Part shown: in pieces, positions 1-13,558 of the stretch
Layout of the letters: the number at the start of each line of letters is the position of its first letter
Position numbering within the stretch: position 1 is the first letter of the stretch
Assembly: GCA_002009975.1 (NCBI GenBank)
Contig: MTLP01000007.1
Coordinates: 1 to 64,000, forward strand
Origin: Thermococcus sp. JdFR-02
GTDB lineage: Archaea > Methanobacteriota_B > Thermococci > Thermococcales > Thermococcaceae
Length of the DNA stretch: 64,000 nt
Direction of reading: 5' to 3'
The notes under the pieces: model-generated
The model's database searches: none
Seen by the model: the letters and a program-made list of their open reading frames with translations, nothing else
Told to the model about the DNA's origin: nothing
Made by a program: the position numbers and the translations under genes

Positions 1-107
1 TCAGGAGCAATTGCCGGAACCCTTATCAATTCCATCAAGGTATTAACCATCTCATCCCCAAGCCTCTCAACCTCCCAAGAAACCTCAGCCAAAACACCAC
101 TTTCCAT
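1..107 (-). CDS. M20-family peptidase/deacylase, N-terminus only (runs off window)
   Basis: Partial gene: only the first 35 codons lie in the window. The start ATG at 107 follows a GGGGGAAG ribosome binding site. The peptide begins MESGVLAEVSWEVERLG and continues with a segment ending LMELIRVPAIAP. The pattern of a short helix followed by 'L.ELI.VPAI.P' is the usual start of archaeal M20 metallopeptidases of the ArgE/DapE/carboxypeptidase type (dinuclear zinc amidohydrolases). It lies on the same strand just downstream of the aminopeptidase-like gene and may be the last member of that catabolic cluster. The catalytic part is outside the window, so only the superfamily can be suggested. Confidence 0.6.
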   Translation of the reverse strand, partial: MESGVLAEVSWEVERLGDEMVNTLMELIRVPAIAP

Positions 108-176
108 ATTTTCTTCCCCCACCTAACATTTGTTATATCTGATTTGTAAGATTTGGCAAAATAATTAGATAGAAAA

Positions 177-1226
177 TTACATTTTCAGGTCTCTAGCTAA
201 CTTTGCCAAATCTTCTGGGTAAATTACTTTTCCTTTATCCATTATCTGAACATCATCTATCCACACTGAAGAGTTTAAGCAAATACCATCTGTATGAGAA
301 GCTGCTGGAATTCCTCCTGGAATATCAGGGACTAATCTTGGCCCAATGTTGCCTATTCCCCATTCTGTAGCTCCCCAAACTCTTTCATCTTCTACTATAT
401 TTCCCGTGAGCTTAGCTCCTGGATTGAAACCATATGAAATGTGAGCAAGTTGATACATGTTTGGATCATTAAAACTCTCAAGCCATGCTGCAAACTCTTG
501 AGCATCTTTTCCTCCCTCAATATTAACTATTCTCCCCTTTTCGACTTCTAATTTTATAGGTTCTTTAAGTAGTCCTATTGGGGGATAAACTGAGCCATCA
601 AAAACTATTGTCCCATTTATCGTCTCTAGCTTTGGTGTCCAACTTATTTGTCCTGGTAACATTTCATAAGTTCCTTTAGGAACGTAGCCAGAGTGGACTA
701 TTGGAGGCCTTAATGGGTGATTTTCAAACTCAACATCTGTTCCTGCAGGAGTTGTAATCCTCATTCTCTTTCCTTTTGCTGTTATTTCAGCAATCTTATC
801 TAAAAATTCAGAAAGCTTTTTCATATCAACTTTTCCAATAACACGAACCATCATGTCAGGATTCATACCTACCAAACAGATATACCTTAATTCTTTGTTT
901 TCTTTTATTACCGTATCAAATACTGTAGAATAAAGTATCCACTGATAGTTAAATTCAATCCAGACATTAACTTCCCTCAATGCCCCAATTAGGGGCTTTT
1001 GGGGTAACATCGGGTCAGCTGCTTTTCCAACTCCATCTGGTGTTGCAATCCATATAACCATTGGCTTTGCCCCTGTTTCAAAAACGGCTCTTGCAGTAGC
1101 ATTTACAACCTCTTCACTAGAGAGAGTGTCTGCTGTTATAGCGACTATTTCATTTGGTTGAACATCAAGAATGTCTCTCACAAGTCTTCGAGCTGCTAAA
1201 CCCAGTTCGAACTCATATACCCTCAT
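177..1226 (-). CDS. M29-superfamily protein with a NicX-like (2-His/1-Asp) ligand set
   Basis: 349 residues; ATG preceded by GGAGG. It shares the M29 thermophilic aminopeptidase fold signature with the 323-residue paralogue at 2912-3883, but the expected metal ligands differ. The first Glu ('LPGAE' in the paralogue) is Gln193, the second Glu is His262 (in AHISYGFNP), the His of 'VHIALG' is Glu288 (TEWGIG), and His311/Asp313 (SHTDG) are kept. His-His-Asp with a length near 350 residues recalls NicX, the mononuclear-iron dihydroxypyridine dioxygenase derived from this fold, more than true M29 peptidases. An oxygenase is unlikely in a strict anaerobe, so the reaction is open. A TATA-like GTTTAAATC lies near 1258-1266, so it may be expressed partly apart from the upstream transporter. 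Confidence 0.75.
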   Translation of the reverse strand: MRVYEFELGLAARRLVRDILDVQPNEIVAITADTLSSEEVVNATARAVFETGAKPMVIWIATPDGVGKAADPMLPQKPLIGALREVNVWIEFNYQWILYSTVFDTVIKENKELRYICLVGMNPDMMVRVIGKVDMKKLSEFLDKIAEITAKGKRMRITTPAGTDVEFENHPLRPPIVHSGYVPKGTYEMLPGQISWTPKLETINGTIVFDGSVYPPIGLLKEPIKLEVEKGRIVNIEGGKDAQEFAAWLESFNDPNMYQLAHISYGFNPGAKLTGNIVEDERVWGATEWGIGNIGPRLVPDIPGGIPAASHTDGICLNSSVWIDDVQIMDKGKVIYPEDLAKLARDLKM

Positions 1227-1297
1227 TCTTAATCCTCCACTACTTGTTTAACACAAAAGATTTAAACAAAAAAGAAAAGGATTTACAAGGGATATTC

Positions 1298-2893
1298 TCA
1301 CTTCTTTCCAAGTCTTAGCGTTGATGTGAAGAAGCTAACCAATGTTGACCCTGCTATCAATCCGGCACCTAATACATATAGAGCTTGTTGCCCTTCTTCC
1401 TTGTATATATGCCTTACAAGTAGTCTTATACCTATAGCTACTAGAACTGTTACACCTGCTATTGGGTACTTTATTAGTAATCCTGTGGCAAATAGAATAC
1501 CCAATTGCCTATCTGGACCACCGATTGCTTGTACTATAGCTCCAGGTATAGCCCACATGAGAAGGTATTTTGCTATTTGGGGACTTGCTCCTGCTTCTAT
1601 CGTAGCAACATATACCCTATCTACTGGAGGTACGAGATCTTGAAGGAGATAGTACTTAGCAAATATTGCAACCATAATTGCAGCAACAATGAGTCCTGTT
1701 AGTTCTGCAAAGTATTGTTGTTTTCTTCCTTCCAATTCAAATTCCTTGTCCTTTCCTTCTCCTCTAATTATCCAACCTGTCTTTAGATCATAACCCATAT
1801 CAGCAAAAGCTGGACCTGTTGATGCTGTGTATCCCACTAATAGTCCGAGAGCAGGGGCTGGGAATCCCATTAGTACACCTAATATAAGGAATATAAGAGC
1901 TGTGGCAAATGCTGGGAACCAGCCTGCGTGCATTGCTGATAATCCAACTATCAATTCTGATACAATGGCTGCAGCAGCTGCAAATATTATCCACCAAATG
2001 AACTTTCCAGCAGGCATACCTGTGTATAATCCTCCCATTAGGGCGAGAAGTAATGCTACTCCAAGGTATAAAGCAAATCCGCGACTTAGTCCAAATCTTA
2101 TATCTGCCTCTGTTCTTGTGAATACATACCCTTCTGATTCTTCCTCGTTCATGGATTTTCTCTTTTTGGATATTATGAGAAGTATTTGTATCAAGGCTAC
2201 AAGTCCCGCACCAATCATTATACCATGTGGGGCATAGTATTTGTTGATGTCTACACCAAATAATTGAACTGAGTACCCTCTCACGATTAGACCAATACCG
2301 AACATGGTTAATGCCCAAATATTTCCAATCCATGCAACACCAGCTATATCAGCAGGGATTTTGAAGAAAAATCTTACTACTGATCCTGCTATTATTCCAT
2401 ATACTAAAAGCATAGCTCTTTTTCCTTTTTTAGCAGCAGCTATTAGGGTCTCTGCAGTAGCTATTCCTGGTGGCCATGGATTTTTGGCTGGGAATACCCT
2501 TGAATCAAAGAGCCAATACAACATTGTCATATCAATGATTGCTGCTAACGTAGCTCCTATGAGCATGGGTATAACAAGATCAGGTCTTTTAAGTAGCCAG
2601 GCAACACCTACGGGTAAGAAGATTGCATTTGCGGCTCCAAATGTGGCACCTGAAATTGCGGTTTGTACCAAGTTTTGTCTGTTTAAGTCTAAAAATTCTC
2701 TCAATATTGCTATTGGGATTCTCGCCACTAAGATAGCGATTAATGCACCAATAATGGAAGTGTTAGTTGAGATGCCCAAGCGTGTAATTAGCTCTAATCC
2801 TATTATAGCACCTAATACTGCCATTGCAATGTTCATTACTAAGATTTTCCCCTCAAATGCCGAGGGGTGTTTCTTTTTTCCAACTTCCTCCAT
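1298..2893 (-). CDS. OPT-family oligopeptide transporter-like membrane protein
   Basis: 531 residues, about 13 hydrophobic segments. Features of the OPT family (proton-coupled oligopeptide or metal-chelate uptake) are the N-terminal 'LNRQNLVQTAISGATFGAAN' segment, matching the OPT 'N.VQT.ASAG' element, and 'NPWPPGIATAETL' near residue 140, matching 'FPEG.ACAEVL'. ATG at 2893 has a GGTGAGAT site. It lies between the two M29-like genes in a minus-strand cluster whose other members act on amide or peptide-like compounds, so it is the likely importer of the pathway substrate. Shorter than many bacterial OPT proteins (600-650 residues). The substrate cannot be read from the sequence. Confidence 0.75.
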   Translation of the reverse strand: MEEVGKKKHPSAFEGKILVMNIAMAVLGAIIGLELITRLGISTNTSIIGALIAILVARIPIAILREFLDLNRQNLVQTAISGATFGAANAIFLPVGVAWLLKRPDLVIPMLIGATLAAIIDMTMLYWLFDSRVFPAKNPWPPGIATAETLIAAAKKGKRAMLLVYGIIAGSVVRFFFKIPADIAGVAWIGNIWALTMFGIGLIVRGYSVQLFGVDINKYYAPHGIMIGAGLVALIQILLIISKKRKSMNEEESEGYVFTRTEADIRFGLSRGFALYLGVALLLALMGGLYTGMPAGKFIWWIIFAAAAAIVSELIVGLSAMHAGWFPAFATALIFLILGVLMGFPAPALGLLVGYTASTGPAFADMGYDLKTGWIIRGEGKDKEFELEGRKQQYFAELTGLIVAAIMVAIFAKYYLLQDLVPPVDRVYVATIEAGASPQIAKYLLMWAIPGAIVQAIGGPDRQLGILFATGLLIKYPIAGVTVLVAIGIRLLVRHIYKEEGQQALYVLGAGLIAGSTLVSFFTSTLRLGKK

Positions 2894-2911
2894 CTTATCT
2901 CACCTACTAAC

Positions 2912-3883
2912 TTAAACCATAAGTTTTCCATTTCTAAACAAATATTCTCCATCAATCAAAACAGTGGGTTCTATAATTATCCCATCCAAATGTATCGGAG
3001 CTTTTGTTAATCCACCAAAGCCGTAGTTGCTTCCTAATGCTATATGCACTGTTCCAAAAACTTTTTCATCTTCTAAAATGTTCCCGCTTATTCTTGCCTT
3101 TGGATTTGTGCCAATTCCAAATTCTGCGATATTTTTCGCCTCTTTCCCATATTTTGACAAAATTTTCTCCAATCTCTTTGCCTCATCACCTCCTTTAATT
3201 TTTTTAACAAAACCATCTTCGATGGTTAGCTTGATAGGAGAGGATAAAACTCCAATACTTGCCATAGAACCGTCTATAACGACCACACCATTGGCAGTTT
3301 CTTCCAAGGGAGCAATATATGCCTCGGCTCCAGGTAAGTTTCCACATTCTCCGGGTTTTCTATAAATTCCTGTGCTTCTTCTTGCTTTTCTACCTTTTAT
3401 TGAAAATGTTAAATCTGTTCCCAATTTAGTTGTAATATGGACTTCCTCCCCGTTATCCAGAATATCAGCAATTTTGTTTGTTAATTCCAGAATTTCGTCA
3501 TAATTAACATTCATTGTCCTAATGAATATTTCCTCTGTAATTCTAGGTAGAGTAGCTACTCTCACACCTTTTTCACAAGCTTCCTTCTTTGCTAAAGTAT
3601 GAGTAATAGACTTAGATGTCGGAGCTAAAACGACATCTGCACTTTTCATAGCCTCTGCCACTGGTTTTGGAGGCTCTTGGCCGTGTATTTCCCTAGGAAG
3701 CATTTCCATGTAAATAGCCTCGGCTCCGAGTTCTTTCGCTTTAGCCCAAAGATGCACCCCAATATTTCTTTCCGGTTCATCTGTTACAATTAACACTGTT
3801 TCTCCTCTTTTTACACCCATACAGTCTCTTAATGCTATTTCACATGCACTGTAAAGCTCTTTATTTATTTCAAGGCGAAACAT
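2912..3883 (-). CDS. M29-family aminopeptidase-like protein
   Basis: 323 residues, shorter than classical AmpS/AmpT (about 410). The M29 metal-ligand pattern is present: Glu187 in LPGAEAYIAP, Glu254 in AEFGIGTNP, His280 in TVHIALGSN, and His298/Asp300 in IHLDGI; these correspond to the E, E, H, H, D ligands of the dinuclear site. It probably removes N-terminal residues from peptides in the cytoplasm. The ATG overlaps the TAA of the AroM-like gene by one base, with GGAGGGA as ribosome binding site, so the two are translationally linked. It probably works downstream of the OPT-type transporter. Specificity unknown. Confidence 0.75.
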   Translation of the reverse strand: MFRLEINKELYSACEIALRDCMGVKRGETVLIVTDEPERNIGVHLWAKAKELGAEAIYMEMLPREIHGQEPPKPVAEAMKSADVVLAPTSKSITHTLAKKEACEKGVRVATLPRITEEIFIRTMNVNYDEILELTNKIADILDNGEEVHITTKLGTDLTFSIKGRKARRSTGIYRKPGECGNLPGAEAYIAPLEETANGVVVIDGSMASIGVLSSPIKLTIEDGFVKKIKGGDEAKRLEKILSKYGKEAKNIAEFGIGTNPKARISGNILEDEKVFGTVHIALGSNYGFGGLTKAPIHLDGIIIEPTVLIDGEYLFRNGKLMV

Positions 3884-4545
3884 TAGCTTCCCTCCACTAA
3901 TTCTCTAATAACGTGAGCCATCAAAGTTCTGGGAAGAAGAACTGGTTTTTTGGTAAGGTCTTTCACAATTTCCTTTGCTTTTAGATTGTATCCAATGCAA
4001 TCCAAAACTATTAAATCACGGTCTTTCAAGGCTCTTGCAGCTTCTTTGATCTCTTCTTCTTTTCCTAGATATGGCGAAACAGCTAATATTTTAGTTTCTA
4101 CGCCAGTATAGGACCATTTTTCTTTTGTTTCTTCAATTTGATCAGGAGAAGGTATAATAACCCCTAGTTTGCCTTGTGGCAATATTGACTCAACAACTTT
4201 TAGCAGAAGTAAAGAGGGCTCTATTAGGAGCTTTTTAGATTTCAATTCAGGAAATTCCCCTGTGCATAAAATACCAATAACGTCAACTTCCTTTTCCAAT
4301 TTTTCAATGCATGTTTGCAGATGCTTAACTATTTTCTCCCTGCTTAGTTTGACTTGAGTTCCATCTCTCAGCCTTGTGACTAAAACATAATCTCCCTCTT
4401 TCGGAGCTAATTTTTGTATTTCTTCGAGAGTTAAATCATCTAAAGCTCCACATTCGATTATCTCAACATCTCCTAAAATTGGAGTCATTTCAGGAACAAC
4501 ATCTACTCTGGGAGACTGTCCAATAGTTACAAAACCTATTCTCAC
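3883..4545 (-). CDS. AroM-family protein (Asp/Glu racemase-like fold)
   Basis: 220 residues. The N-terminus MRIGFVTIGQSPR is diagnostic of the AroM family, and a cysteine lies in 'GILCTGEFPEL' near residue 94 and another in 'LIVLDCIGY' near residue 178, the two places where Asp/Glu racemase-like enzymes carry catalytic cysteines. The biochemical role of AroM is not established; the name comes from a shikimate-regulon gene in E. coli. The GTG start overlaps the stop of the DUF1177 gene (GTGA), and its own stop overlaps the next ATG. Its place between DUF1177 and an aminopeptidase suggests catabolism of an amino-acid derivative, not aromatic biosynthesis. Confidence 0.8.
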   Translation of the reverse strand: MRIGFVTIGQSPRVDVVPEMTPILGDVEIIECGALDDLTLEEIQKLAPKEGDYVLVTRLRDGTQVKLSREKIVKHLQTCIEKLEKEVDVIGILCTGEFPELKSKKLLIEPSLLLLKVVESILPQGKLGVIIPSPDQIEETKEKWSYTGVETKILAVSPYLGKEEEIKEAARALKDRDLIVLDCIGYNLKAKEIVKDLTKKPVLLPRTLMAHVIRELVEGS

Positions 4546-5480
4546 TCTTTTGCCCTCCCTAACGTTTGTAAATGTTTCATAGAACCGTAAAGCTCTACTA
4601 AGCGCTTAAACTCTTCTTCATCATAGAATTTCACTTTCCCTTTTCCAAATCCTTTAGCAACTTCAATACAAAATCTTGCAGCCTGATCTATATCAATCTC
4701 ATGACTCGCCCCGCTTGCGCTTCCTGGTACTGCAACTTCAGAAGTTATTGCCACTCCAACAACAGGAGCATCCGTTGCCGTTGCCGGTTGCACTATGCTA
4801 TTCAGGTGATAGATATCATTTCCATATGGTGTGATATCTTGCATAGTTATGGGCACAACTGCAGGAAGCTTTCCAGTGACAATTTGCATTATATCTAAAA
4901 GATCATCACTAACTTTTAGTATCCATCCTTCTTTTACTGTTGGCGTTATGGCGATTCCCTTGATATTAATGATTCTATTTCCTCTGGTAGTATCGATAGA
5001 AAGAATTGCATCCATTCTTGGATCAACTTCATACTTGTTCATTGTCGCAATATCTACAGGAGAACCCATAAAAGGAACTGGTTCATGAGGTTGAGTTGGA
5101 GCGTTAGGGCAGATGTGTGTTGCTATTATAACGTCTCCTTCTAAAATGTCTCCATTTCTTTTCATATCAGCAAGTTTTAGAGCTACAGAGATTGCTGTAA
5201 CTGCACCATCTGCATCTGAAACAAGACCGATAACCTTTGGTCTAGCTCCAATACCGCCTAATCTACCAATTATGCCAAGAGTTGGTGCTGTTCCTCCTGA
5301 ACTTTTCCCATTTTTTCCAGGAATTACAATTTTTATAAAATCAGTTGAACCTCTTGGACCCTCTATTGTTTTTACTTCTATATTTTCCAATCCCCTTTTC
5401 CCTAAGAATTCAGCTACCTTATATCCGCTTACATAAGCACTGTCTAAGAGTTCATAAGCCTCTATAATCTGCTTCAACAT
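4542..5480 (-). CDS. DUF1177 family protein
   Basis: 312 residues from the ATG at 5480, chosen because a GAGGTG site lies 4-8 bases upstream inside the longer GTG frame. It matches the DUF1177 family, which has no known reaction. Visible landmarks are a glycine-rich stretch 'GIIGRLGGIGARPKVIGLVSD' near residues 68-90, 'THICPNAPTQPHEPVPFMG' near 145 with conserved His and Cys, and 'SGASHEIDIDQAARF' near 270. The His/Asp/Glu-rich loops suggest a metal-dependent hydrolase-type enzyme (inference). It begins 11 bases after the DUF917 stop and overlaps AroM by four bases, so all three are made together. Confidence 0.8.
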   Translation of the reverse strand: MLKQIIEAYELLDSAYVSGYKVAEFLGKRGLENIEVKTIEGPRGSTDFIKIVIPGKNGKSSGGTAPTLGIIGRLGGIGARPKVIGLVSDADGAVTAISVALKLADMKRNGDILEGDVIIATHICPNAPTQPHEPVPFMGSPVDIATMNKYEVDPRMDAILSIDTTRGNRIINIKGIAITPTVKEGWILKVSDDLLDIMQIVTGKLPAVVPITMQDITPYGNDIYHLNSIVQPATATDAPVVGVAITSEVAVPGSASGASHEIDIDQAARFCIEVAKGFGKGKVKFYDEEEFKRLVELYGSMKHLQTLGRAKE

Positions 5481-5490
5481 TTTTAGCACC

Positions 5491-6564
5491 TCAAACTACT
5501 ATCTTTTTTCCTATTGTCTTTTCAACTTGTTTCAAAACATCAAGATCCTTAACACCTGCTCCGAGTAGAAGTTTTTCTTTGGGAACAACCAAAATAGCGA
5601 CTTTTTGACCCTTTTTAATTTCAGCAGAGCTTAGGGGTAAAGAATTTTCAACATTGATTGTGACAATTAAGTCTGGAAATGTTCCAAGACGCCTTTTACC
5701 GGATTCTAAGGTCATATACTCATTCCAAAATGTTATTTCATATGTATCTCTTCTATTTCCTTCAATTAAAATAGAGCCTATATCAAATCCACCTCTCGTT
5801 TCAAGTGTGCAGTCTTTTACAACTCCATAATCAATGAATTTGCCTCCTAAATATTTGAGAATTTTATTTATCATTTCCTCGACATTATCTTTATGTGCTT
5901 GTATTATTTTACCAACTTCTATTGCTTGGGTTATTCCTCCAACTGCAGCATTCTCTTTAACGTATTCTGGGAAAATAGGATTTCTTGTAACTGCCACTAA
6001 CCCACCAGCTTGAACCGCCGCTTCTCTAACCATTTTCGAGGCTTTTTCTAAGTTTCCTTTTACAAAAAGTTCAATATAGCATCCCTTCTTTTTATCACCT
6101 CCCACGGCAGTTTGAATGGAAGTATATTCTGGAAGTTTATGGAGTCCCATTGCTCCCATGATGCCTGTTGGATGCGCTCTCCCATCAGCTGGGGCATCGA
6201 TAATAGGAATTCCAAGAATAGCAGATTGGATCCATCCGTTTATCGTTGAATATCCTCCGTTCTCTGAGGAAATTATTCCTCCAACTTCCATTTTTTCTAT
6301 TTCAATCAAGAGTTCGGTTGATTTTATCATATGACTTGGCATAAGATACTTCTCTTTAGCGGCAGGTGCTCCAACCATAGAAGCAGTTACAATGAGAGAA
6401 TCTTTTGGAACACTATCAATGTCTATTATAATAACATCTCCAAGCTCGATTGCAAGCTTTGCATCCCTTAGACCCTGCTTTAAATCTCCTCCACCGCCAC
6501 CACCAAAAAATGCTCCTCCTAAAACAGCGGCTTCTGCTAATCTCTCATTTATTTTAAGCTTCAT
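5491..6564 (-). CDS. DUF917 family protein (S-methyl-thiohydantoin desulfurase-like)
   Basis: 357 residues. The N-terminal poly-glycine loop (residues 21-26, followed by D27) and the later segments 'VGAPAAKEKY', 'SSENGGYSTING' and 'DAPADGRAHPTG' are typical of DUF917 proteins, which accompany hydantoinase genes; the Pfam family has been linked to S-methyl thiohydantoin desulfurase. Start ATG has a GGGGGGAG site inside the end of the racemase gene (11-base overlap). Next to a hydantoin-racemase-like enzyme, this argues for a cyclic imide or hydantoin-like substrate, but no hydantoinase (cyclic amidohydrolase) is seen in the window. Family assignment is firm, reaction is not. Confidence 0.8.
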   Translation of the reverse strand: MKLKINERLAEAAVLGGAFFGGGGGGDLKQGLRDAKLAIELGDVIIIDIDSVPKDSLIVTASMVGAPAAKEKYLMPSHMIKSTELLIEIEKMEVGGIISSENGGYSTINGWIQSAILGIPIIDAPADGRAHPTGIMGAMGLHKLPEYTSIQTAVGGDKKKGCYIELFVKGNLEKASKMVREAAVQAGGLVAVTRNPIFPEYVKENAAVGGITQAIEVGKIIQAHKDNVEEMINKILKYLGGKFIDYGVVKDCTLETRGGFDIGSILIEGNRRDTYEITFWNEYMTLESGKRRLGTFPDLIVTINVENSLPLSSAEIKKGQKVAILVVPKEKLLLGAGVKDLDVLKQVEKTIGKKIVV

Positions 6565-7234
6565 TTTTCTCCCCCCAAATATTTAATCTCTTTAGAGAAT
6601 GTAAAGCAACTGTACCAGCTGCAATTACAGGGTCAATAATAGGTATCTCAACCCTTTTCTCAAGAATAGGAGCGATTTTTATTGTTGACATACCAGTGCA
6701 TCCTAAGAGTATGACATCAACCCCTTTTTCTTTTAGTCGTTTTGCAGCGTTTATTGCCGCATTTTTTCCCAGTTCAGTCATTAGATCTAGTGTATTCGTT
6801 ACTCCTTTTGGATGATCTTCTGCGACTAAATGATCTCCGAGAATTTCTTTAATGACCATTGGAGTTTCTTCAGTTAAATTCAATACACCAACTTTCTCTC
6901 CATACGCTAATGCCAAAGAAGATGCAGCAGAACCGGCACCTATCACAGGTATAGAAACCCTCTCTCTTACTTCTTTAACTCCAGGATCAGCAGCACAACT
7001 TATAATAATTGCATCAACACCCTCTCTTTCAAATTCTTTAGCCAACTCTATAATTTTTGGTTTTGCTATTTTTTCCGTTTTAGAATCGTAGATTCCTTGT
7101 GGTTGATTTTTAATACACTTACTAATGACCTTTAATTCGGGATATGCTCTCTCTATTATCCTCCCATGCACATTTAAAAGTTCTTCATCTGTTATAGTTA
7201 GAACTCTAATTAATCCAACTATGTACTTATGCAT
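6554..7234 (-). CDS. Asp/Glu/hydantoin racemase family protein
   Basis: 226 residues with the two-cysteine active site of cofactor-independent racemases: Cys80 in SCAADPG and Cys179 in GCTGMST, each in a pseudo-symmetric half. Such enzymes abstract and return a proton at the alpha carbon of aspartate, glutamate or 5-substituted hydantoins. It is the first gene of the minus-strand catabolic cluster, with ATG 7234 and a GGTGAT site six bases upstream. A perfect palindrome and an imperfect one lie 47-114 bases upstream, between it and the divergent Lrp-type regulator. 'AADPG' with the DUF917 neighbour favours hydantoin-like or amino-acid-derivative racemisation over cell-wall glutamate racemase, which an archaeon does not need. 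Confidence 0.82.
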   Translation of the reverse strand: MHKYIVGLIRVLTITDEELLNVHGRIIERAYPELKVISKCIKNQPQGIYDSKTEKIAKPKIIELAKEFEREGVDAIIISCAADPGVKEVRERVSIPVIGAGSAASSLALAYGEKVGVLNLTEETPMVIKEILGDHLVAEDHPKGVTNTLDLMTELGKNAAINAAKRLKEKGVDVILLGCTGMSTIKIAPILEKRVEIPIIDPVIAAGTVALHSLKRLNIWGEKNEA

Positions 7235-7280
7235 GCATATATCACCATCGAGTGTGAAACCATGATAGAATTTATCTATT

Positions 7281-7303
7281 ATTGAACCAAAGTGTGGTTC
7301 AAT
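7281..7303. promoter_or_regulatory. Perfect inverted repeat, candidate Lrp-type operator
   Basis: ATTGAACCA (7281-7289), five-base spacer, TGGTTCAAT (7295-7303): a perfect 9-base inverted repeat in the divergent region between the racemase-led operon (start 7234) and the Lrp/AsnC gene (start 7425). Position and symmetry fit a dimeric HTH regulator; binding by the neighbouring Lrp protein is inferred. Confidence 0.6.
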
Positions 7304-7310
7304 GTTTTTG

Positions 7311-7348
7311 TTATTGGACTAATTTTTCATTAAAATTTAGTTCAATAA
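7311..7348. promoter_or_regulatory. Second, imperfect inverted repeat of the same half-site
   Basis: TTATTGGACTA (7311-7321) and TAGTTCAATAA (7338-7348) are inverted with 10 of 11 bases matching and a 16-base AT-rich spacer. The half-sites resemble those of the palindrome at 7281 (ATTGRAC core), giving four related half-sites in about 70 bases, a spacing pattern suited to a multimeric Lrp-type regulator. A TATA-like CTAAAAATTTA follows at 7350-7360 for the plus-strand regulator gene. Confidence 0.5.
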
Positions 7349-7424
7349 TCTAAAAATTTAAGAACATAAAGATACCGAATAAGATATGATAATAGAAATT
7401 TAGGTCAAAGTTGAGGGAAAACAA

Positions 7425-7895
7425 ATGAAGTTGTCAAAAAAAGATTGGGAGATAATTCGTCTACTTAAGAAGAATGGAAGAATAAGCGATGCTGAGATAG
7501 CTAGGAGGATTGGAATGTCAAAAACAGCGATCAGATGGAGGAGGATAAACCTACAAAAGCGCGGATGTCTTATGATATCTGCATATCTTAGATTTGACAA
7601 GGTTGGGTTTTCGTATGCCATCGTTTTAATTAAGTTAAAGGCTGATGCTTTGAGAGAGGATATTCTAAAATTTAAACAAAAGCTTATGGAAAATCCAAAT
7701 GTTTTTGAAGCTTATGAAATAGCGGGAGACTACGATATACTTGCAGGATTTTTTGGTGAAGATGTGAACTCTCTTCATAATGTCATTGAAGATGCAGTAC
7801 GAGGAGAAAAGGTTATCAATGACTACAAGATTCTTTTTGGTATTAAAACATTGAAAGGGCTTGAAGTCCCGTTTTATGATGCACTAGGTCTCTAA
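7425..7895 (+). CDS. Lrp/AsnC-family transcriptional regulator
   Basis: 156 residues: N-terminal winged helix-turn-helix (residues 5-50; 'ISDAEIARRIGMSKTAIRWR') and C-terminal RAM-like ligand domain ('AYEIAGDYDILAGFFGED' near 105-122). Lrp-type proteins sense amino acids and regulate their own gene and neighbours. It is transcribed divergently from the racemase/DUF917/DUF1177/AroM/OPT operon with two palindromic elements between, so it is the likely local regulator. ATG 7425 has a GAGG element upstream. The ligand may be the product or substrate of the operon (inference). Confidence 0.88.
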   Translation: MKLSKKDWEIIRLLKKNGRISDAEIARRIGMSKTAIRWRRINLQKRGCLMISAYLRFDKVGFSYAIVLIKLKADALREDILKFKQKLMENPNVFEAYEIAGDYDILAGFFGEDVNSLHNVIEDAVRGEKVINDYKILFGIKTLKGLEVPFYDALGL

Positions 7896-12186: not shown

Positions 12187-12846
12187 TTATAAATCTTTAT
12201 TTTGAAGAAGATAAGTCAAAAGCTTCTTCAGCGGTCTATTGTCCAAACTCTGTAAAGTTTCCTTTATCTCTTCCTCTAAACCCAAATTTCTGTTTACATA
12301 GAGATAGAGGGCATATGCCATTAGCTTTGGATCACCTTCATTAACAATTTTAATAGCCTCTGAAAGAATTGGGCTATTTAACAACTCATCAGCCAGTTTT
12401 AGTATTCTCTCATCGTTTCCTTCTCTTAGTGCATCTTTTAACGGATTATAAAATGAGCTTATCACTATACGAGCACTTCTTTCCCTACTTTCTAAATAAT
12501 CAATAGGACTCTCTTTTTGCTCTTTTCTGAAGGTTCTCCAAAGGATGTATGAGAGTGGAAAGAGAACCAATGTTGCAGTGATTATTATATAGAAGGTTGT
12601 AGGAATGGGAATTCCCCTAGCATATCTGCTTTTTATGTAGATGAGCAATAACAGTCCCAAGAAAATCCATATGAAGAATATCATGAGATAGTAAACTGAA
12701 GATTCTTGTCTTCTTTCCCAAGTTTTATATCTTGATATTGCCCCTGTTTTTTCCATTAGAGCTAATCTCTGCTCCACAAACTCTATCTCAGCTTCAAGTC
12801 TTTTAATTCTCCTTTCAATCTCACTAATAACCTCATTAATATGCAT
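12187..12846 (-). CDS. Membrane protein with N-terminal coiled coil and two TM helices
   Basis: 219 residues: a coiled-coil region at residues 3-35 rich in E/R/L, two membrane helices at about 52-70 and 83-102, then a soluble helical tail. Family not recognised. Its start overlaps the creatininase-family stop by 11 bases, so translation is coupled, but the functional link is unclear. The tail ends 'KKLLTYLLQNKDL'. Confidence 0.7.
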   Translation of the reverse strand: MHINEVISEIERRIKRLEAEIEFVEQRLALMEKTGAISRYKTWERRQESSVYYLMIFFIWIFLGLLLLIYIKSRYARGIPIPTTFYIIITATLVLFPLSYILWRTFRKEQKESPIDYLESRERSARIVISSFYNPLKDALREGNDERILKLADELLNSPILSEAIKIVNEGDPKLMAYALYLYVNRNLGLEEEIKETLQSLDNRPLKKLLTYLLQNKDL

Positions 12847-13558
12847 CTTTCTCGCCCAAGATTAGTTTGGTTATCTTCTTACTAACAATATCTAATATGA
12901 TTTCCCCTTTATCCTTTGTAGCCTTACTTGGGTCATCATTAACGCCATCTGGAAAAAGCTCAAGCCCGATATCTCTCCTTATCCTTCTAACTTTCGTTGT
13001 TCTTTTTTCACCTTTGGCTTTATCCATCTTTACAAGCTCTGGCTTTATTGCTAAGATGACAGATGTTTCATCTTCTCCCGCATGACCTTGAGAAGAACAA
13101 ACACTTAGGATGTCTTCTCTAAAATCTATCCACCAGTTGATGATCCATACCTCAACATCAAAATTCTCTGCAACCTTTTCACTTGCTTCAATAAGAGGAT
13201 ATATGTTCCCTCCATGTCCATTCATCAAAATTATTCTCCTAAATCCTTCCTTTGCAAACTCCTCTATTACATCCTTAACATAAGCACGTAAGGTTTCTGC
13301 TTTTACATTTATCGTACCGGGATAGACGTTTAAAACGAAACTATGTCCATAGGGAATTGGAGGTGCAATTAGAATATCTCCTCCTTTCTTTCTAACTTCA
13401 CCTTCAACCCTTTTTGAGATTTCAATTGGGGCTAATACGTCAGTGTTTAGAGGTAAATGCTTTCCATGAGCTTCAATACTTCCAATTGGGATTATAACAG
13501 TGCTAATCTCTTCCCTTATTTTTTCAAACTCATCCCACGTTAGGTTTTCCATCATCAT
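12836..13558 (-). CDS. Creatininase-family amidohydrolase (possible ArfB-like)
   Basis: 240 residues with the metal-binding motifs of the creatininase family: 'GSIEAHGKHLPLNTD' near residues 27-41 (Glu, His, Asp), 'MNGHGGN' near 112, and 'GHAGEDETSVIL' near 158. Members include creatinine amidohydrolase, mycofactocin peptidase MftE and the archaeal formamidopyrimidine deformylase ArfB of riboflavin/F420 synthesis; ArfB is the most plausible archaeal role, but specificity is not visible. ATG 13558 has a GGGGA site. Next to a glycosyltransferase gene on the same strand. Confidence 0.82.
   Translation of the reverse strand: MMMENLTWDEFEKIREEISTVIIPIGSIEAHGKHLPLNTDVLAPIEISKRVEGEVRKKGGDILIAPPIPYGHSFVLNVYPGTINVKAETLRAYVKDVIEEFAKEGFRRIILMNGHGGNIYPLIEASEKVAENFDVEVWIINWWIDFREDILSVCSSQGHAGEDETSVILAIKPELVKMDKAKGEKRTTKVRRIRRDIGLELFPDGVNDDPSKATKDKGEIILDIVSKKITKLILGEKDAY

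Follow-up and report, generated by a model that had tools for sequence, protein, structure and literature searches.

What is the function of a dense run of genes at the beginning of contig C5 in a Thermococcales archaeon (genome G000; 2.36 Mb in 44 contigs)? The window analyzed here comprises positions 1-64000 of this contig, and its minus strand carries, between positions 1 and 7234, seven complete genes plus the first part of an eighth, tightly packed. They encode a hydantoin-type racemase (race1), DUF917a, DUF1177, AroM, the M29-like hydrolase M29a, an OPT-family transporter, the NicX/M29-like protein M29b and an M20 metallo-hydrolase, all of which had been listed in a preliminary description of this DNA and are indeed present. 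This archaeal gene set, which is conserved and occurs in many anaerobes, combines import, racemase and hydrolase functions and probably serves the uptake and degradation of cyclic peptide fragments. As to the substrate, we favor, with a little less than even confidence, cyclised dipeptides of mixed stereochemistry (2,5-diketopiperazines) or closely related cyclic amides; the window would then contain module one of a system that imports and degrades them.

Distribution of the DUF1177-AroM pair

Gene families were assigned with Pfam and NCBIfam profiles, plus PDB sequence matches. DUF1177 (PF06675) was found in nine of the 94 genomes of the family, and true AroM in exactly those nine (9/9 versus 0/85 of the others; Fisher p = 9e-13, with kinship ignored); weaker matches to the AroM profile were racemases and were not counted. 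The same type of DUF917 accompanies DUF1177 in eight of the nine genomes (Fisher p = 8e-11, kinship again ignored). The order race1-DUF917a-DUF1177-AroM-M29a is kept in seven of them (the window's own genome, G005, G006, G008, G011, G047 and G078); the G086 locus is a fragment which agrees with this order as far as it extends, and in G074 the DUF1177-AroM pair stands alone, with an M20D-type amidohydrolase. The possibility that the cluster is an assembly artefact was rejected, since the same gene order is found in complete, single-contig relatives.

Outside the family, the analysis drew on the best 80 of 230 loci with a DUF1177 relative; the 59 of at least 12 kb were counted, a neighbor being scored if it lay no more than 9 kb away on the same strand. 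AroM was present in 76% of these loci, DUF917 in 54%, M29a in 42%, a racemase in 41%, OPT in 36%, a PucR-type regulator in 34% and a dipeptide-ABC permease in 25%, with HyuA in a few. The dipeptide-type ABC permease replaces OPT in 13 loci, the two occurring together in 2 (p about 0.03), and minimal loci contain DUF1177-AroM with an ABC transporter and M20. In Bacillota, Spirochaetota, Synergistota and other groups, DUF1177 has these families as neighbors. These neighbor frequencies, together with the exchange of importers, identify the DUF1177-AroM pair as the core of the gene set, often joined by a peptide-type importer, with the racemase, DUF917 and M29a as frequent additions. The comparison of gene neighborhoods proposed in the preliminary description therefore upholds its idea that the cluster imports and degrades a peptide-like or cyclic-amide substrate: the gene set is shared by different phyla, the importer is swapped (OPT, dipeptide ABC or ECF), and the racemase has both cysteines.

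In a few loci (L097, 10187-13322, of G078; L041, L046 and L047) an energy-coupling factor (ECF)-like transporter is found in place of OPT; neither Pfam nor NCBIfam gave a match for its S component, and the substrate of this transporter should equal that of the pathway. A 282-aa family, also without a Pfam or NCBIfam match, lies beside DUF1177/AroM in several bacteria (L047, 5453-6301; L010-L014, L032 and L046).

In the DUF1177 tree, the protein of the window falls inside the Thermococcales clade, with a few metagenome-assembled genomes (MAGs) from other taxa. An archaeal-type cluster was observed in the MAG "bacterium GBS-1" (L063, 8245-15219) and in a Thermoplasmata MAG (L005, 8823-20942), which represents either transfer or mis-binned Thermococcales contigs.

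The contig break and the second module

Position 1 of the window is the end of contig C5, where the M20 frame runs off, so that the cluster is cut by the assembly and not by biology. A terminal stretch of 101 bp is common to contigs C5 and C10, and a different one, also of 101 bp, to C2 and C30; the break is explained by a near-identical 5′ part common to two M20 paralogues. A 3′ part of M20 located at the end of C2 is 80% identical to the M20 that lies between M29b and race2 in G011, versus 65% for the one on C30. From these values, and from the presence of M29b-M20-race2-CDOA on one contig in G011 and G047, we infer that C5 pairs with C2 in the window's genome.

The identical stretch shared by the M20 paralogues (window 1-101; C10:1-101, L146; the ends of C2, L132, and C30, L133) suggests recent gene conversion. 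The M20 copy of C10 adjoins a second membrane protein, of 627 aa, which is OPT-like by eye.

On C2, M20 is followed by race2, by CDOA and CDOB of a cyclodipeptide oxidase (CDO), by a second Lrp-like protein and a five-gene dipeptide-type ABC importer, and then by race3, DUF917b, race4 and another NicX-like gene. The single-contig genome G008 carries both modules side by side on one strand (about C1:399768-417543), which also speaks for the C5-C2 pairing; in G078 they lie within about 25 kb. What had been described as an eight-gene cluster thus probably extends across the contig break into a module with the CDO, an ABC importer and DUF917b. DUF917b and CDOB are neighbors in five genomes without DUF1177 (G031, G039, G043, G088 and G091), which indicates that the second module can exist alone. 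Loci L134-L141 (G008, G039, G088, G078, G047, G064 and G091) link CDOA/B to a dipeptide-type ABC importer, two racemases, DUF917b and a NicX-like gene.

The best PDB matches of the C2 CDOA, among more than 60 nitroreductases, are AlbA (8uc3) and 9exv, named only "nitroreductase" in the table of matches, which we take to be NdasCDO-A. CDOA keeps the cysteine of the covalent flavin mononucleotide (FMN) region, and the GIGSCP cysteine is present in 9/9 Thermococcales CDOAs; in NdasCDO, FMN is bound covalently to Cys121 (PMC11760959). CDOB belongs to PF19585 (E 2e-30), and in 8 loci its gene shares 29-32 nt with that of CDOA, similar to the overlap of 20-30 nt reported for CDOs. Since the lineage is anaerobic, the electron acceptor is presumably other than oxygen. 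According to PMC11055893, CDOs are present in Thermococcus, and the substrates of those investigated to date are 2,5-diketopiperazines, which, with the identity of CDOA/CDOB, argues for cyclic dipeptides as the substrate.

CDOs elsewhere are tailoring enzymes of biosynthetic clusters, and one explanation, raised for clusters without a cyclodipeptide synthase (CDPS) in the same paper, is that the block serves the biosynthesis or tailoring of a cyclic-dipeptide-based metabolite and not catabolism. We regard this as very improbable, because the block encodes two importers and many hydrolases; a CDPS was found in none of the 94 family genomes, a weak argument given that control genomes were equally silent.

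Predicted enzymes and possible substrates

The racemase race1 is a close homologue, over its length, of PDB 2eq5 (E 1e-101), a P. horikoshii protein named "hydantoin racemase" by annotation. Residues C80, C179 and D83-P84 are invariant in 36 sequences and T180 and G181 are also conserved, so that both catalytic cysteines of the hydantoin/allantoin racemases (PF01177; PDB 2eq5, 3qvj) are kept in their CxxDP and GCTGM contexts. AroM passes Pfam PF07302 (272.5 bits; gathering cut-off 23.8), and its AlphaFold2 model (pLDDT 96.7) gave as best Foldseek matches allantoin racemase, maleate isomerase, arylmalonate decarboxylase, glutamate racemase and hydantoin racemase. AroM C94 and C183, invariant in 47 sequences, occupy the columns of the two racemase cysteines. 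On this model AroM has a two-cysteine racemase fold, with which a structure-based remark in PMC11055893 agrees. Within one genome, five racemase-fold proteins retain both cysteines.

DUF917a matches the NCBIfam thiohydantoin desulfurase (NF058529) over nearly its full length with 313 bits, yet below the equivalog cut-off of 440, and the S-methyl thiohydantoin desulfurase (NF058532) with 276 bits, below the cut-off of 450; judged by these profiles, it is a member of the wider DUF917 family only and not an equivalog.

These two proteins bring in the explanation that the cluster degrades hydantoins, N-carbamoyl amino acids or thiohydantoins: race1 would racemise a 5-substituted hydantoin, DUF917a would hydrolyse or desulfurate the five-membered ring, and DUF1177, M29a and M20 would remove the carbamoyl or acyl group. 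The motifs of race1 (C80..DP, C179TGM), the nearly full-length match of DUF917a, the PucR regulators and occasional HyuA of the 59 loci, and a hydantoin/allantoin link proposed for these families in PMC11055893 are all in keeping with it. However, DUF917a stays under the desulfurase cut-off, a search of the window's genome found no HyuB-type hydantoinase, M20 belongs to the ArgE/DapE-like family NF010589 and not to the carbamoylase family, and the importers are of oligopeptide/dipeptide types; the CDO is left unexplained. On balance we consider this explanation rather unlikely, but a serious competitor. The earlier suggestion of a hydantoin substrate retains the closeness of DUF917 to thiohydantoin desulfurases, but hydantoin is not singled out.

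DUF1177 passes Pfam PF06675 with 472.6 bits (gathering cut-off 25). Its AlphaFold2 model (pLDDT 89.6) is most similar, according to Foldseek, to M17/M28 zinc aminopeptidases (E 4e-9, TM about 0.5, root-mean-square deviation 6-8 Å), with which it shares the predicted fold at ~10% identity. The conserved polar residues are D92, D94, H125, C127, H135, D166 and H228; matched by eye to the M28 ligand positions from the order of the fold, and therefore provisionally, they retain the canonical ligands in part. Since the canonical zinc site is not clearly recognisable among them, a hydrolase activity of DUF1177 is likely but unproved. A literature search found no paper on the function of this family, and searches on cyclic-dipeptide degradation gave nothing relevant. 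The earlier statement that three of the enzymes have no known reaction is true biochemically, but a two-cysteine racemase fold for AroM and a zinc-exopeptidase fold for DUF1177 can now be predicted.

M29a passes Pfam PF02073 (63.7 bits; cut-off 27), and its residues E187, E254, H280, H298 and D300 are invariant in 33 homologues. From the alignment and knowledge of the family, these five are candidate dimetal ligands, with spacings that fit M29. Compared with the M29 aminopeptidases PepS and AmpS, M29a thus retains the candidate ligands, but it is shorter (323 versus about 410 residues) and the sequence match is weak. M29b aligns with NicX, a 2,5-dihydroxypyridine dioxygenase (7cn3), with E 6e-16 over 225 of its residues. 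The Fe ligands of NicX are His265, Ser302, His318 and Asp320 (PMC7910607); His262, His311 and Asp313 of M29b align with three of them, but the set is incomplete, with an Arg aligned at Ser302. O2-dependent ring cleavage by M29b was rejected, as one Fe ligand is gone and an anaerobic host lineage makes such a reaction unlikely.

With four enzymes of exopeptidase families or folds, importers (OPT and Dpp) that are peptide transporters, and minimal loci holding just DUF1177-AroM, ABC and M20, the cluster could also extend the use of linear peptides to those with D- or iso-amino acids: OPT would import them, M29a, M29b, M20 and DUF1177 would act as exopeptidases, and the racemases would convert the D-amino acids set free, with no ring chemistry. 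This leaves DUF917, the hydantoin-type racemase motif, the NicX-like site and the linked CDO unexplained, and we think it improbable.

For cyclic dipeptides, the simplest scheme that uses all the parts would consist of (i) import, by the OPT permease or the ABC importer of module two, (ii) a change of the alpha-carbon configuration by two-cysteine racemases (race1, AroM and race2-4 of module two), (iii) possible dehydrogenation of the ring by the module-two CDO, with an electron acceptor other than oxygen, (iv) addition of water and opening of the ring by DUF917 and/or the NicX-like metalloenzyme, and (v) hydrolysis of the linear products by DUF1177, M29a and M20 to amino acids usable by a peptide-fermenting lineage; the order of steps is inferred. 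What favors cyclic dipeptides is the link to the CDO and the dipeptide/oligopeptide type of the importers; the reading is further supported by the tight operon spacing, the shared patchy distribution of DUF1177, AroM and DUF917a, the alternation of OPT and ABC importers, the contiguous modules of G008 and the five two-cysteine racemase-fold proteins. At high temperature dipeptides cyclise and epimerise, and the hot habitat would therefore provide such substrates.

Several observations weigh against cyclic dipeptides. The closest characterised relatives of DUF917a use five-membered thiohydantoin rings and not six-membered diketopiperazines, and since race1 too is closest to five-membered-ring enzymes, hydantoin-type rings are nearly as credible. 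In DUF1177, R76 stands at the apparent first-His position, and H263 is present in 51/68 sequences (75%). The PucR regulators, together with HyuA at a few loci, point to ureide-like substrates. A search with a narrow seed recognised no CDO in the vicinity of most bacterial DUF1177 loci, and module one occurs without CDOB in G006 and G086 (the latter an incomplete genome); module one need not, therefore, share the CDO substrate.

A bolder extension, which we put forward as speculative and doubtful, is that DUF1177-AroM forms the core of a widespread unrecognised pathway of anaerobes and hyperthermophiles that salvages cyclised, epimerised dipeptides, a product of the thermal damage of peptides; DUF1177 would then be an exopeptidase-fold hydrolase of a new kind, and some lineages would add a CDO that works without oxygen.

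Locus layout, regulation and published precedent

The overlapping or near-overlapping frames reported earlier for the first five genes were confirmed: race1 and DUF917a overlap by 11 nt, DUF1177 and AroM by 4 nt, and AroM and M29a by 1 nt, with a 1 nt gap between DUF917a and DUF1177. The remaining gaps are 18 nt (M29a/OPT), 71 nt (OPT/M29b) and about 55-70 nt (M29b/M20).

Table 1. Features at the beginning of the window
Feature	Position	Strand	Basis or remark
M20 metallo-hydrolase, first ~35-40 codons	1..122	-	open frame exits position 1, contig end
M29b, NicX/M29-like metalloenzyme	177..1226	-	no Pfam match; best PDB sequence match NicX 7cn3
OPT-family transporter	1298..2893	-	PF03169 E 2e-22
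M29a, M29-like hydrolase	2912..3883	-	PF02073 E 2e-17; PepS 4icq/4icr matches
AroM family, predicted two-cysteine racemase fold	3883..4545	-	PF07302 E 3e-81; AlphaFold2 + Foldseek
DUF1177, predicted zinc-exopeptidase (M17/M28) fold	4542..5489	-	PF06675 E 3e-142; AlphaFold2 + Foldseek
DUF917a, S-Me-THD N and C domains	5491..6564	-	PF06032/PF20906
race1, hydantoin-type Asp/Glu racemase	6554..7234	-	PF01177 E 3e-30
Divergent promoter region with palindrome and half-sites	7235..7424	.	
Lrp/AsnC-type regulator, divergent	7425..7895	+	PF13404, PF01037

The divergent Lrp/AsnC-type gene and the palindrome mentioned in the preliminary description were both found, and the gene is likewise divergent in the G005, G006, G011, G078 and G086 loci. 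The clearest palindrome of the 190-bp intergenic region is ATTGAACCA-N5-TGGTTCAAT; its 9-bp arm was reached in 2.3% of composition shuffles, weakly beyond chance by itself, and the palindrome was dropped as strong evidence and kept as suggestive only. The relatives repeat a GGTTCAA-type half-site ahead of a TATA-like element. The Lrp-type regulator would control the block via palindromes in the shared promoter.

Beyond the regulator lie a 154-aa protein without a family and a 4-phosphopantoate--beta-alanine ligase, with no link to the cluster. The same is true of an open reading frame at 12836-13558 of the minus strand (GSIEAHGKHLPLNTDV), creatininase/amidohydrolase-like by eye. The GC content of the cluster (0.384) equals that of the rest of the window (0.381), which gives no sign of recent foreign DNA, and a horizontal island was rejected on this basis.

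The claim that the pathway appears undescribed was too strong, since PMC11055893 (Nat Commun 2024) already reports an enrichment of PF01177 racemases, DUF917, AroM, OPT/ABC transporters and peptidases in CDO gene clusters. The non-CDPS clusters treated there combine the same racemases, DUF917, AroM, OPT or dipeptide ABC transporters and peptidases with CDOA/CDOB, but the main text of that paper names no DUF1177, M29a/M29b or two-module layout; here, unlike in those clusters, the CDO lies in a second module outside the window, and module one also occurs without it. New in the present analysis are the DUF1177-AroM core and its distribution, the exchange of importers, the two-module block of Thermococcales, and the fold and active-site inferences.

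DUF1177, AroM and DUF917 are common in prokaryotes (the E. coli aroM gene was sequenced in 1986), and to our knowledge the reaction has been tested in none or almost none of them. That they travel with peptide-type importers, racemases and an archaeal CDO narrows the substrate to cyclic amide or peptide chemistry, for the study of which the cluster offers a thermostable system; it would also bear on the role of CDOs outside biosynthetic clusters and in anaerobes.

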